Assembly (NCBI GenBank): GCA_024220505.1 | Contig: JAKZZE010000028.1 | Span: 186,001-250,000 of the forward strand | Reading direction: 5' to 3' | DNA: 64,000 nt | Source: Rhizopus arrhizus | Taxonomy: Eukaryota; Mucoromycota; Mucoromycetes; Mucorales; Rhizopodaceae | Shown here: positions 17,524 through 23,307 of the stretch, piece by piece | Layout: each line of letters starts with the position of its first letter | Numbering within the stretch: the stretch's first letter is position 1 | Program-made: the position numbers and the translations under genes | The notes under the pieces: generated by a model | What the model was told of the DNA's origin: nothing | The model's database searches: none | Seen by the model: only the letters and a program-made list of their open reading frames with translations

Positions 17524-18634
17524 GCATCTCTTCAGAATTAATAAAAGCATGTTTTAATTGAAAATTCTCCTAATTTTCATACTTTGTAAATAAAAATCAA
17601 AATGAATACATTCCCTCTATATTTTAAAGAAAATTGTATGTTTCTGTTTAGTAGGATTGGAACAATGAAAAAAAAACGTACCACTGTTTATTAAAAAATC
17701 ATTCCACGTCCATCGAAAAAAAAAAGCAGGAGATAGTGCAAAAAAAAAAATGTATATAAGAATCATTTTTGTTTTATTTTGCTTTCTATTCAAATGTCGT
17801 ATACATCAAATAAACATCTTCGTTTTATCTCAAACAAACACCCGTTAGAAGAAGAAGAGGAAGAAGTCATGGATAGTATTGGAATATTAAAATGGTTCTT
17901 TGAATCTACGCTTTTTGGAGCATCAAAGGTTACGATCACAAATGTTTAACAGCACATATCAATCATTTTTAACTTGTAAATCCATATTCTGTCATTTAAT
18001 AAATTGCATACTTGAACCGTAGATTAAGACTATGAACACTAGAGTTTACTACATGTTTACAATTTTTCCTCCCTTGTGAATATATACACTATTTCCAAAA
18101 ATTAAAGTTGTTGTGACTTGTCGCAATTGCATATGAATTGTACTATAAAACTTTACAAAATGCGACTTTGATTTCTGGAAATAATATATTCTAATTACAG
18201 ACCCTCTGAGCCCCTCCATCATTCGTGATCCTACACTTCTCAATGAATCCATTGAAAGAAAAACCAAACTTGCTCGTCATGTATTCCTCCAACGACTTGG
18301 TTCTGCTTTCCGCCGTCTCAAGGCTCCTCTTTATAACGCTGTCACTAACTACTTTCTCCAATCTGGACTCATAGACCTCAATTTCTTGGAGTCTTTTGAT
18401 CTCGATCCCCCTCACAACTATCACAACCCTCTCCTAGACAAGATCTAGAGCTCTTTTCTACCTCTTCCCTTCCCTTTCCTTTTTCCCTTTTTGACTATCA
18501 AAAAGGTTTTCCGTTCATTTAATCCTCTTTTTGATCTAACCCGGGCAATGCAATCCTAAAAGTGATTATGTGCTCACATGGGGTTTTTAATTTTTACAAA
18601 TAAAAAAAAATAATCTTTAATCGTATTCTAATTA
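17524..18634. other. Interval between eL8 and the Fanzor element
   Basis: Holds a 51-codon ORF at 17793-17948 (MSYTSNKHLRF..., with a Glu run) that has no recognised domain, and the relic listed at 18201-18448. These two might be exons of one old gene, since TAATTACAG at 18192-18200 looks like a splice acceptor, but no donor gives a consistent frame. A CT-rich stretch runs from 18450 to 18500. Confidence 0.4.
18201..18448 (+). pseudogene. Coding-like fragment with shifted base composition
   Basis: About 82 codons read from DPLSPSIIRDPTLLNESI to NPLLDKI and stop at 18448, with no start codon. Codons are CTC/CCC-rich compared with the AT-rich flanks. It could be the last exon of an unrecognised gene or a piece of an old retroelement. 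I recognise no domain. Confidence 0.3.
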
Positions 18635-18711
18635 CAGTGCAAGAAACTAGGTTGGGCCAATGAAAAAAAATTTGGTCAATTTAAAATTGAATTGGGACAC
18701 GGTTGCCAAAA
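18635..18711 (+). repeat. Left terminal inverted repeat of the Fanzor element
   Basis: Begins CAGTGCAAGAAACTAGG and ends GGTTGCCAAAA. It matches the reverse complement of 22052-22128 with about three differences: two near the tip (TGC against TTA) and one in the A/T run. Confidence 0.92.
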
Positions 18712-19380
18712 TGGGACACAGATGGGAGAATGGGACAAAGGAGAAAAGGCGAAAGATTTATCCGACATGAGCACAAGACAGAAGTACAGGGACAAAGGAG
18801 AGACAGAATGTTAGTTTTTTTTTGGACGAATAATAATTGATTTTAAAATGTTTAACTCACCTTTTTTGGGAAAAGCGAAAATGGAAATCGGACAAAGCAG
18901 TAATTTCTGAAACCATTGCTTAAGTTATGAATATTCATCTTCAAAATGGACAGATTTACTTAGCCCCCCACTGTGTATATTACAAAATATGAGGTAGAAT
19001 AAATTTTATGCAAAATGCTTATTATCTTATAACATTACATAAGCCGTATAGCCAATTACATTACCTGCCAGTCTATTAATTAAATAGTCAAGAAAAGCAT
19101 ATGACTAGTAATTACGCTGGATCGCCACAAGCTATAGTTTTGAGTTGCTCCAAAGCAATTAATCAGTTTTGCTACTGTTATATATCAGAAAATTTTCATT
19201 GGTCATTAAGGATTTCAATAGAAAGTAACAGAACTTGAACAAATTTATATACATTTATTTTCTTTCTGAAGCTTATAATAGATAATGAAGCGATGATATA
19301 AAAATGATCCCGCGAAGAGCTCGTCAACAAGAAGAAAGATTTTAAAGAGTAAGTACCAAAATAACACATTGCGAGGTATC

Positions 19381-21971
19381 ATGTTCCTTACTTTTTTTCA
19401 AGAAGTCAATTCCGATAATATATCAGTTACATCTGCTCTGACCACATCAGTTGCTTCTGGTTCACAGGCTTCTACTTCACAGGCTTTTACTTCACAGGTT
19501 CCTAGTGCTCTTCCTCCTACCTCCAAAAAGATACAGAAGAAAACAGATAAACAACTTGCTTTGCAGGACTTTAGAATGAAAACAAAAAGCAATACAGAAA
19601 AGACATGTCCTTCTTGCGGATTGCATACTCACTCAAGATCATCATCCAACCTTTGCCCAAAAAAGAAGCAAAAGGAGCCATCTCACAATCCTGATGAGAA
19701 AAAGGAAACTTTTGCAATCAAATCCTCCTTAAAAAATATATGTACGGACACAAGGATTTATGAAAAGATTGCTTCAGTAGTGGCCTACACAACCAAAGCG
19801 ATCCACGTAGGCTCACTATTTATGAACTATATTTTTTTGAAGCTTTTAAACAAGGGGGAACAAGTGCCAATTATTGATCATACCCTTGTCTATTCTATTT
19901 TCACTATTGTAACTGGCAATGGCAAAAAAGTCCCTAAATACTGTCAAGATTACTTTGTTGAATTTTGCAACGAATGCCAAGTCAATGAAACAATACTGCA
20001 ATCCCTCAAGAGTATTGGATATTCGTCTGTTATATCTATTATGTGTAAACAATACGATGTACTCATACGCAACCATGTATGTGAAAACCATGAAAGGAGA
20101 ACAACCCGCTTTTTTCTGGAAGCTTTTTCAGATATGTCTTCTCCCTTCTATTGCAAAGGATTATCAGTCGCCCAAAGAAAAGCACTCTCTCACTATGTTT
20201 ATACATTAAAGCAGAAACAGCAATCAATATGGCCCTCATCTTTAGAAAGAAATCAATGTTTAGAAGAAACCATAGAGAAGATGAATGCATTATGGAGTCG
20301 ATATCAGACAATGAACTGCGATGCGGAAGACCTGTACTCCAAACCTCATGAATTCTTCAAATGGTTTTTCTATCTTCAGCAAAAGATAAATGAGAAGGTG
20401 TATATTATGGAAGAAAAACCAGCCACCTTTGCCTCCAAGTCCTACATTTATAGGAAGTTAAAAGAACTCACGTTTACTTCAGTACTCAATAGACGAAGCT
20501 TCAAGTCTTTACAGGAACAAGTACTGCAAAGCATTAATTCAAAAATACCACTAGTGCTTGGGAAAAAATTAGAGAAGCTTGAACCCCATTTACCTGCTCT
20601 TTTGAAATTTATTACAAGTATCCAGTCTAGAATTGAAGATGGAACATTCACGCCTGCTAAATGCACGGATCGGCGAGGCTATCGCTTTTTTTCCATCTTA
20701 CCTGTATACTCATTTGCGATGAAGTCAATACAAATAGATGCTCAAGCTTTCTGGCGACTGTTGAAGCAATCTGGTATTGAAAATATCCCAAAAGGTGTTA
20801 AAGATAAATCGGCTCTCTCGGACTTCTACTATAGGCTTTTTAACTTTTCCAAAATGGGATTTCGAACTCGAAAAAGCCTTTCAGAGGGGAAAAAACAGTT
20901 TCAGTAAGTTAGCTTAGTTGAATTGAAAAATAAGAGCCTTGATTTAATCAAGTTATACATAGAAACGTTATATATACCGATGGGTATTCGATTTCTTTCC
21001 TTTTTTCTAGAGTGAGGAAGAAAAAACAAATAGATACTCTACTGGGAAAACAGCCTGAGGACTTCCTCAAAGATATTGAAAATGGTTGTGAAATTTGGGG
21101 AGTAGATCCTGGTGTTGCCACACTTGTAACTGCCGTCGATACATCCGGAAGGCAAAGAACTACAAGCTTGGACGAGTACTATCATCTGTGTGGCTATAAT
21201 GATGCGAATTCTATACGAAAAAAGCATCAAGAACAACACAAGGCTCAGTTTTTGAAAATTTCTAATTTAAGCTCGTTGAAGACATCCAATATGGCAGAAT
21301 TTTTAAAAGCTTGCAAAGAAAGACTAAGTTTATATGATGATATTACAAGTTACTACAATGAAAAATCTTGGTAAATAAAAACATGATTTTTTTTTTACTT
21401 GTTTACTTGAGCAACATGCAAAAATCTGTGTAGGTCGTCAAAACTGAAGTTCAAATGCTACATTAGAAAACAAAAAGGTGTTCATGAGATCTGTAAGCGC
21501 TTCATTCACGGTAGTGCCAAATACGATGAAAAAGCAACTACAGGCGTGAGAATATCTACCAAGAAAGAGAATAGATACTATCCTTCTGCTCCCATTGATC
21601 ACGAAAAAAGATCCAAGAAAACCATCATTGCTTTTGGTGATGGTATGTTTGGTTCCAGCCTCCGTGGAAATAAATCTGCTCCTGTACGGATGATTAAGAA
21701 GGCTTTGAAAAAATATTGTGGAAAGCAGCTTGATATTTGCATGGTGGATGAATATTTAACAAGCCAAATCTGCAACAAATGCAAGACTAGAAACGTAGAC
21801 AATGTTGTAGCCGCCAAATCAAAACGAAGAGTACATACGGTATTGCAGTGTAAGCAAAACAATTGCAATATCATATGGAATCGTGATATCATGGCTGCTC
21901 ATAACATACTGGATATATTTTTATTTGCTGCAAAAAACAAAAATCAGCGTCTTGATGCCTTTGTGCGTTAG
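19381..21971 (+). CDS. Fanzor RNA-guided nuclease (eukaryotic TnpB homolog)
   Basis: Three exons (19381-20903, 21011-21370, 21434-21971) join in frame to 806 residues. Both introns have GTAAGT/GTAAAT donors and TAG acceptors. The N-terminal part has a C-x2-C-x3-H-x8-C cluster, CPSCGLHTHSRSSSNLCP (about residues 77-94). The C-terminal third is the RuvC nuclease: WGVDPGVATLVT with catalytic D540, CMVDEYLTSQIC with E734, and IWNRDIMAAHNI with D779. The TnpB-type zinc finger C741-x2-C744...C767-x4-C772 sits between the last two. All catalytic and zinc residues are present, and no frame break is seen. Fanzors cut DNA guided by an RNA made from their own locus. The start is uncertain: a GTAAGT donor at about 19349 and an acceptor just before AAGTCAATTCC hint at a 5' exon, but no in-frame ATG was found in it. 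Confidence 0.93.
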
Positions 21972-22051
21972 TTAGATCCCAGTGGCCAGCTTTCCGTGTG
22001 ATTGATATGACTCTCTCATACTTCTGTACAGTGTAAGTTGGACAAGTTTTT

Positions 22052-22128
22052 TTTTGGCAACCGTGTCCCAATTCAATTTTAAATTGACCAATTTTTTTTT
22101 CATTGGCCCAACCTAGTTTCTTTAACTG
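22052..22128 (-). repeat. Right terminal inverted repeat of the Fanzor element
   Basis: Ends CCTAGTTTCTTTAACTG next to TA at 22129-22130, the inverted partner of 18635-18711. The inner edge lies 80 bases past the Fanzor stop. Confidence 0.92.
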
Positions 22129-22176
22129 TAAATCATGATACATTTGTACCAAATAAGATCGGAATAGTAATATAAT

Positions 22177-23307
22177 TTATTTTTTATTATTTTTTGAGTA
22201 ATAACTTCGTACAAGGTTAAGACCTAAGATATTCCATTCAAACAAGGCAAATCCGGCTTGCGAACGGTTATACATGCAGAACGCATCATTAAGATCGACA
22301 AAAGCATTTCTTTTTGCAAGGCATTCATAGCTAGTATTTGAGATAGCAGGCTTGATAAAATCATGTCTTGCACTAATACTACACCACATCAGGCTTCTGC
22401 AGGAAATAACAAGATCGTAAACTACCTGTATCGAAAGTTGTGCCCAGCTTGCTATATAAAGCCTTGTTAACTTGGGCAGATAACAAGTGATTGTCTTCAA
22501 CGTCGCATCTGTGATATCTGAGCGAGGCAAGATCAAATCCGAAAGGTTTGGATGAGTCTTTATGAAGGGGATAATGACATAATCATTCATGTCGCATTTT
22601 GTAATAGTAAACTTTTGTAAATGTGGAAGGTACGGCTGACCTTGGTCGTCTACAGTGATAAATGAAATGAATTCGATCGGCATCCTTTTGCAGCAGCTTA
22701 ATGTAAGGTGCTTTAGATGAGTAAACGAACGTAAATCGTGTGCTGTTTCATCCATTGTGATCCAGTCACATTCATGCAGCTCTAAGTGCTCGATCTGTAG
22801 ATAAGTCAGGGGACGTAGGGCGGTCGGGGCCAAGCCTTCACAATTTGCTAAAGAGAGGTATTGCAAATGATGGCATTTGCCAAGGGGTACAAGTGTCTTG
22901 TTTGTGATGAATATATTTTTCAAAATCAGCGTTTTCAGAAACTTACAGCAATTCGATAGCAGCTCAAAGCTTACTTCTGTTAGCTCTTCAGCTTGTCTAA
23001 TATCTAGCTCTTCAAGATTTGGTGTGAATGGAAAGATATTTAAAAAATCAGTATCCCTGACACGTGTATCATATGTAAACAGCATGCTTTTCACACGATT
23101 TCCTAGTTGGTGCTTAGAAAAGCCTTGACTAAGAATGAATTGACAGAGTGTACGTTTGTGGCTGAAATGAGGATTCCTCCATAGTTCAGGTATTGCAGCT
23201 GCATAAAATGCTTTATTCACAAATAGACAGTTATATTGATATTTTTTGTTTAGGTAGCTGACGACTATTTGCAGAATTTCGCTTGGAAGTTTTTGTATTG
23301 AAAGCAT
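22177..23307 (-). CDS. F-box/leucine-rich-repeat protein
   Basis: One exon, 376 residues. Residues 5-45 (LPSEILQIVVSYLNKKYQYN.. ..AFYAAAIPELW) are an F-box. The rest reads as irregular leucine-rich repeats: LEELDIRQAEELTEVSFELL, LKTLILKNIFITNKTL, LQYLSLANCEGLAPTAL, LKHLTLSCCKRM, LSDLILPRSDITDATLK and LTRLYIASWAQL. Such proteins present substrates to SCF ubiquitin ligases, and many fungi of this group carry large families of them. The partner is unknown. A long A/G-only tract (23310-23365) lies upstream of the ATG. The Fanzor element ends 48 bases beyond the stop, so it may have replaced the original 3' region. Confidence 0.88.
   Translation of the reverse strand: MLSIQKLPSEILQIVVSYLNKKYQYNCLFVNKAFYAAAIPELWRNPHFSHKRTLCQFILSQGFSKHQLGNRVKSMLFTYDTRVRDTDFLNIFPFTPNLEELDIRQAEELTEVSFELLSNCCKFLKTLILKNIFITNKTLVPLGKCHHLQYLSLANCEGLAPTALRPLTYLQIEHLELHECDWITMDETAHDLRSFTHLKHLTLSCCKRMPIEFISFITVDDQGQPYLPHLQKFTITKCDMNDYVIIPFIKTHPNLSDLILPRSDITDATLKTITCYLPKLTRLYIASWAQLSIQVVYDLVISCRSLMWCSISARHDFIKPAISNTSYECLAKRNAFVDLNDAFCMYNRSQAGFALFEWNILGLNLVRSYYSKNNKK

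Follow-up and report, generated by a model that had tools for sequence, protein, structure and literature searches.

The 64,000-nt window analysed here (Rhizopus arrhizus, assembly GCA_024220505.1, contig JAKZZE010000028.1, positions 186,001 to 250,000) contains a transposable element at 18635..22128 whose only gene encodes a Fanzor1-type nuclease; Fanzors are CRISPR-like enzymes that cut DNA under the guidance of RNA. It is one copy of a family which has terminal inverted repeats (TIRs) and is flanked by TA dinucleotides. The best explanation, one we put a little above even, is that these are non-autonomous transposons which carry Fanzor1 alone and home into empty sites using a guide derived from their own flank. 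The family, its Fanzor motifs, selection on the gene, a RATTA motif on the left flank only and scars at the left end only were directly observed, and from these we infer a target-adjacent motif (TAM), a guide RNA, cutting and homing.

A multi-copy transposon family

The inverted arms of the window copy (18632-18711/22052-22131) span 80 nt at 96% identity, with CAGTG opening the element at 18635 and the final TIR base at 22128. We re-read these arms and their flanking TAs (18633-18634 and 22129-22130), and they agree with the original prediction of 77-bp inverted repeats that start with CAGT and have TA on both sides. That prediction also held that the element has a Fanzor-family nuclease as its sole gene and no transposase within it, which was borne out, and it depended on the repeats occurring elsewhere in the genome, which they do.

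The genome is represented by one haploid assembly (50.26 Mb, 41 contigs). Searches of it scored the best candidates only, so totals are lower bounds. The TIR core has at least 47 matches with three or fewer mismatches, versus none for a reversed control pattern, and the first long exon has at least 21 near-full matches. The repeat matches are therefore not due to chance, and the element belongs to a multi-copy family.

We read 35 loci, including the window copy (loci read from the genome are named L0xx, and L026 and L036 are a single locus). Copies with a near-complete gene number 24 and were aligned; fragments and two miniature inverted-repeat transposable elements (MITEs; L032 and L040) also occur. 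Both ends are present in 20/35 loci, the MITEs included, and 12/35 have a right end without the left TIR tip (L023, L027, L028, L030, L031, L033, L034, L035, L037, L038, L039, and L043). L024 has neither end, L041 and L042 are unclear, and no locus has a left end only, making right-only vs left-only 12 vs 0 (p 0.0005). Divergence between copies is 2.2-2.6% in coding and 1.9-4.3% in non-coding sequence.

Fanzor identity and selection on the gene

We place the protein in Fanzor1 by its motifs. The Fanzor1 pattern D-X(125,275)-[TS][TS]-X-X-C4-X(5,50)-RD, defined in PMC3627910, fits as D540, 196 residues, TSQI, CNKC..CKQNNC, five residues and RD779. D540 is followed by P and G, giving the DPG in RuvC I that PMC10711439 uses as a Fanzor1 criterion, and the alternative glutamate E734 lies six residues before C741, the start of the C4 zinc finger (C741/C744/C767/C772). 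All three predicted RuvC acids (D540, E734, and D779) and the four cysteines were thus found again on re-reading the 806-aa model, and the catalytic D, E, and D are retained in 24/24 aligned copies. PF07282 (TNB zinc domain) matches with E 1.5e-6 (28.7 bits vs a cut-off of 26.3). The carrier, a TA-flanked TIR (non-IS607) element in a Mucorales fungus, matches the carriage of Fanzor1 by eukaryotic transposons.

The nearest relatives are unnamed hypothetical proteins of Cokeromyces recurvatus, Rhizopus microsporus, and Mucor flavus, with 52-77% identity over the matched parts. At 288-608 aa these models do not reach the query's length, and some motifs are missing, although two of three Cokeromyces models and one Rhizopus model that we read retain recognisable zinc-finger or DPG pieces. 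Among solved protein chains, there was no sequence match to the family protein, and structure predictions were of low confidence (mean predicted local distance difference test scores of 42.9 and 55.7).

Measured against the majority codon, the 24 copies contain 382.3 nonsynonymous and 339.7 synonymous differences, a ratio of 1.13 vs 2.42 under neutrality, the latter predicted from the spectrum of mutations in the element's non-coding sequence. Nonsense changes, counted from exon 2 on, number 4 vs 62 expected. The same is seen among singleton changes (143 synonymous and 194 nonsynonymous, with 2 nonsense vs 26 expected), and omega is ~0.47 over all changes and ~0.56 for singletons. The gene is therefore under purifying selection and, given the low coding divergence, we consider that the nuclease was selected until recently.

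Gene model and state of the window copy

The original prediction had one spliced gene of 806 residues with two introns (19381-20903 + 21011-21370 + 21434-21971). Its spliced frame does read through without interruption, but the alignment of 24 copies gives the family gene a start at 19285 and three introns, so the proposed start codon lies inside intron 1, between the exon 1 donor and the acceptor at 19402. Exon 1 (64 nt) reads approximately MKRRYKNDPAKSSSTKRKILK (MKRRY..DPAKSSST.RKILK or near), is open in 21/24 copies and ends at 19348, where GTAAGT follows in 22/24. The basic N-terminus that it gives the family protein resembles a nuclear localisation signal. The ATG at 19381 is usable (i.e., in frame with no immediate stop) in 12/24 copies, including that of the window, and in the other 12 it is lost, out of frame or directly before a stop.

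Exon 1 is broken in three copies, by a frameshift in L011 and in L013 and by a stop as the fourth codon in the window copy. Because of this stop, the window copy is probably neither intact nor active as it stands, contrary to the suggestion that it might be an active copy. It is possible that it could still give a protein from ATG 19381, minus the family N-terminus. All exons are open and splice sites usable in 13/24 copies, the window copy not among them, and 11/24 have some defect. A 15-bp tandem repeat (window 19446-19500) encodes ASTSQ-like units and varies in copy number, producing in-frame changes of 15 to 150 bp.

RATTA on the left flank

RATTA stands directly left of the element at 19/20 left ends, the exception being L025 (CACTA). 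The count, 18/19 plus L023, takes in the MITE L032 and also L010, where TG has replaced TA. On the right flank only TA is conserved: RAT before the TA (read as the complement) occurs at 3/27 right ends, and elsewhere in the window TA has RAT before it at a frequency of 0.039. An A after the right TA is mildly favoured (15/27). A control Tc1/mariner family in the same genome has no such preference at 0/10 and 0/8 ends (0/18). Flank positions beyond RATTA are mixed, so the insertions are independent.

Copies with swapped end types still have RATTA at the left, i.e., L022 and L029 (right-type left ends) and L017 (left-type right end). In Spizellomyces, CA stands left of the repeat, and the measured TAM of SpuFz1 is CATA, which is CA plus TA (PMC10432273). 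By analogy, we predict that RATTA, or ATTA, is the TAM of the family nuclease.

Scars at the left end

The common left end is CAGTGCAAGAAAC. In five copies, however, the sequence that starts after the left TA is identical, for a few nucleotides, to the right flank of that copy: 5 nt in L011, 6 in L012, 11 in L013, 10 in L023, and 4 in L025. The match is 3 nt in L020, 1 nt in L016, and 0 in the remaining eleven. Over these 18 copies (L010 was excluded, having lost its TA), the prefix matches sum to 40, compared with a mean of 7.7 for permuted flanks (p 5e-6, 200,000 trials). Such scars occur at 5/19 left ends vs 0/27 right ends (Fisher p 0.008), where 26/27 finish with TTTAACTG-TA and L017 has a left-type end.

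Letters gained equal letters lost in L011, L012, L013, and L025, which indicates that the TIR tip was replaced, not shortened; L023 is three letters shorter. The right flanks of scarred copies also fit the TIR in register better than those of 18 other copies (6.8 vs 4.2 of 17, p 0.019). In L012, L013, and L023, we read the left end as RATTA joined to right-flank sequence, i.e., the old site with a single TA. Scar lengths (4-11 nt) are below the 16-17 nt from the TAM at which SpuFz1 cuts the non-target strand (PMC10432273).

A possible mechanism

A separate transposase would insert copies at TA. An RNA transcribed from the right end, through the TIR and the TA into the right flank, could then serve as a guide that records the insertion site, with RATTA at the left acting as TAM. 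Within the guide region, Fanzor would cut sites free of the element, be they on a sister, on a homologue or in a different nucleus of the fungus. The right broken end would be wholly homologous to the filled copy, and the left broken end would carry left flank with RATTA, plus at most ~16 nt of right flank as a tail. This left end could pair with the filled copy via the left flank and prime copying of the element. Repair would normally remove the tail, and an untrimmed tail with microhomology to the TIR would be kept as a left scar. Such tail retention would produce scars that are left only, in register, shorter than ~16 nt and associated with microhomology, which matches the few scars seen.

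Taken further, the Fanzor may be a eukaryotic homing drive, with left-only scars in the guide region and with RATTA sites becoming fixed because only those are drivable. We hold this stronger form tentatively, as somewhat more doubtful than not.

Alternative explanations

RATTA could instead be an orientation-specific target preference of the transposase, with the scars arising from imprecise transposition (a longer duplication and loss of the left tip) and Fanzor simply carried along. The MITEs L032 and L040 speak for this: they lack the gene and the conserved 61-nt block that follows it (described below), and their left ends likewise have RATT, a point in favour of transposase preference unless the MITEs are internal deletions of older full copies. 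The mildly favoured A that follows the right TA points the same way. Imprecise ends, however, would not be expected to gain as many letters as they lose, the swapped-end copies keep RATTA at the left, the control mariner family shows no comparable preference, and the Fanzor gene has been under purifying selection. We therefore regard this explanation as unlikely, though a serious contender.

Ordinary gene conversion at the left edge, between filled and empty alleles and with no Fanzor cutting, could also leave scars, since in-register replacement and microhomology are compatible with any heteroduplex that extends into the TIR from the left flank both alleles share. The right flank is equally shared, yet scars are confined to left ends, and twelve copies lack the left TIR while none was read that lacks only the right, so we consider conversion alone improbable. 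That Fanzor is an inert passenger, whose copies seem intact because they spread recently, would suit the small divergence between copies and the defects seen in 11/24. The omega values and the deficit of nonsense singletons disfavour it and leave it with hardly any probability.

Several observations weigh against homing driven by Fanzor. There are only five scars; the left ends of L011 and L025 differ from the common one by a single base, and L021 has that variant without a matching flank. The largest permuted prefix-match sum was 39, just short of the observed 40, and dropping L012, L013, and L023 raises p to 0.008. Among the twelve loci without a left TIR, only L023 has right-flank letters at the left junction; the excess of copies without a left end may hint weakly at copying begun at the right and stopped early, weakly because the other eleven junctions have no such letters. 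The cut distance is taken from a distant Fanzor, SpuFz1. The window copy itself has no left-end scar and carries the premature stop in exon 1, the MITEs show RATT, and the candidate guide scaffolds (below) do not fold better than shuffled sequences (z -0.8 to 0.5).

Comparing the joined flanks of 18 copies with the window and the fetched loci revealed no clean empty paralogue (this comparison did not extend to the whole genome). The other Fanzor families in the genome (L063-L065) have no clear terminal repeats, so they do not provide a second family to test.

Right end and candidate guide RNA

The 61-nt block after the stop codon is present in 24/24 aligned copies, L024 then losing its right end. 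Its nucleotide diversity (pi) is 0.0135, where introns and 5' non-coding sequence have 0.019-0.043; this is only suggestive of conservation. After it comes a segment of ~80 to 280 nt whose length depends on the deletions each copy carries (e.g., L018, L010, L021, L015, and L016 have different internal deletions between the 3' block and the right tip), and L018 retains only ~19 nt of the right repeat. The right tip, CTAG-TTTCTTTAACTG-TA, is exact in 20/23 copies, and CTAG precedes the last 12 nt in 22/23. GTAAGT directly follows the block in 21/23.

These letters allow a further hypothesis, which we hold less firmly: a spliced guide RNA in which the terminal 12 nt of the right repeat and the adjoining TA would follow directly on the 61-nt block. 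Splicing, if true, would let the segment between vary from ~80 to 280 nt among copies. The joined length (61 + 12 + 2 = 75 nt) equals that of the SpuFz1 scaffold, and the fold of the spliced candidate has a TACAGT/ACTGTA hairpin next to the guide. Rfam gave no match at E 0.5 in window 18000-23000.

Search for a partner transposase

The element had been called mariner-like. The TA duplication and the TIRs starting with CAGT support this, but none of the loci read showed a transposase flanked by matching ends. The genome has at least 199 DDE_3 matches (with the best 150 of 1749 candidates scored), and only for a handful did we read the ends.

Candidates were rejected for several reasons. The DDE open reading frames (ORFs) in L041 (434 aa), L042 (mariner family A), and L043 (a fragment) are not between matching ends: family A ends differ from those of the Fanzor family, and there are no repeats around the L041 ORF (L043 was not searched for repeats). 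The TIR-pattern matches L036 and L041 are DIRS-like retroelements nested in repeats; their ORFs (L036:597-4843 and L041:996-2965), which we read as reverse transcriptase plus recombinase-like, lie inside the Fanzor-family terminal repeat. L066-L069 and L072 have similar ends with no recognised transposase ORF. Three DDE_3 transposases (L073-L075) have 5' stretches without a matching end, as judged by eye.

L062 was also rejected. Its perfect 314-nt inverted repeats resemble Fanzor ends, and the element (L062:147-4354) codes for RPDG..EVK fragments in place of Fanzor, which have no Pfam match and which we read as PD-(D/E)XK-like. A related ORF (L042:6922-7668) lies beside a diverged Fanzor-type repeat. 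By eye, RPDG..EVK genes are repeatedly within ~1-2 kb of DDE_3 matches (Table 1), some in elements with related ends, which suggests two-gene mariner-type elements with an accessory nuclease.

Features and surroundings

An F-box gene (22177-23307) adjoins the element and has 74% identity to a Rhizopus delemar protein. On the left, window 18383-18625 has 94.7% identity to a part of L069 downstream of an ORF like those of long interspersed nuclear elements. Left-flank matches to repeats were seen in L013, L018, L019, and L025 as well. L027 and L069 share a recurring repeat whose inverted ends are TTGCCGTAGTGAGGACGGAAGATATGGTAAA; in L027 it adjoins a disrupted left end.

Table 1. Features of the window copy (window coordinates) and RPDG..EVK/DDE_3 pairs.
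Feature	Position	Strand	Remarks
Whole element	18635..22128	+	3,494 bp; TA dinucleotide at either side
Left flank AATTA (instance of RATTA), predicted TAM	18630..18634	+	contains left TA of target duplication; TAM role by analogy with SpuFz1 (PMC10432273)
Left terminal inverted repeat	18635..18711	+	77 bp
First coding exon of the family	19285..19348	+	premature stop at codon 4 (19294-19296) in window copy
Intron 1, GTAAGT..TTTCAAG	19349..19402	+	contains ATG 19381 of the earlier model
Exon 2, N-terminal half of protein	19403..20903	+	includes copy-number-variable 15-bp repeat
Intron 2	20904..21010	+	
Exon 3	21011..21370	+	D540 in DPG
Intron 3	21371..21433	+	
Exon 4	21434..21971	+	E734, C4 zinc finger, R778-D779, stop
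Conserved 61-nt block after stop, ends ..CTGTACAGT	21972..22032	+	candidate guide-RNA scaffold (putative role)
Hypothetical 3' untranslated region intron, GTAAGT..CTAG	22033..22116	+	length varies in other copies
Right terminal inverted repeat	22052..22128	-	
Right TA of target duplication	22129..22130	+	
Right flank, predicted guide-sequence source	22131..22150	+	by SpuFz1/TnpB precedent
RPDG..EVK/DDE_3 pairs in G000	C6:1053315/1054571, C37:2202667/2203568, C12:1194748/1193627, C22:299721/298734		
Further RPDG..EVK/DDE_3 pairs in G000	C14:849999/848489, C18:738087/739114, C41:1122278/1123028		

Comparison with known systems

The closest parallel is Spu-1/SpuFz1 of Spizellomyces punctatus (Bao and Jurka 2013, PMC3627910; Saito 2023, PMC10432273), which likewise has Fanzor1 as its sole gene, TA duplications, inverted repeats and conserved letters upstream of the left repeat which, with TA, make the TAM (CATA). 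There too, according to PMC10432273, no transposase with the same repeats was found. The Rhizopus family differs in having 77-bp repeats, three introns, a protein of ~820 aa, RATTA in place of CATA, a 3' non-coding part of variable length and left-end scars. PUl-4 and other Fanzor-only elements (PMC3627910) share mariner-type ends, TA duplications and Fanzor alone; PUl-4-type ends match a known mariner, whereas no partner was found in the Rhizopus loci read. PpFz1 of Parasitella parasitica (PMC11423790) is also a Fanzor1 from Mucorales, with TAM ATN and a 75-nt guide RNA.

TnpB of IS200/IS605, described as a site-retention nuclease or plasmid gene drive (PMC11870625), uses a flank-derived guide to cut empty sites, as we propose the Rhizopus family may do. 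That system is bacterial and has a peel-and-paste transposase, whereas the Rhizopus family is eukaryotic and has cut-and-paste-type ends.

Elements of this kind were already described in 2013 (PMC3627910). The predicted TAM looks new, as does, provided it holds, the genomic footprint of Fanzor action on empty sites; judged by title or abstract opening, none of the papers listed in a search of the Fanzor literature reports such scars, most subscription papers being outside that search. The role of Fanzors for the transposon or host is described as unknown in PMC10432273 and PMC10711439. Flanks that predict a TAM, together with one-sided scars, make Fanzor function checkable, e.g., by strain resequencing and a cleavage test.

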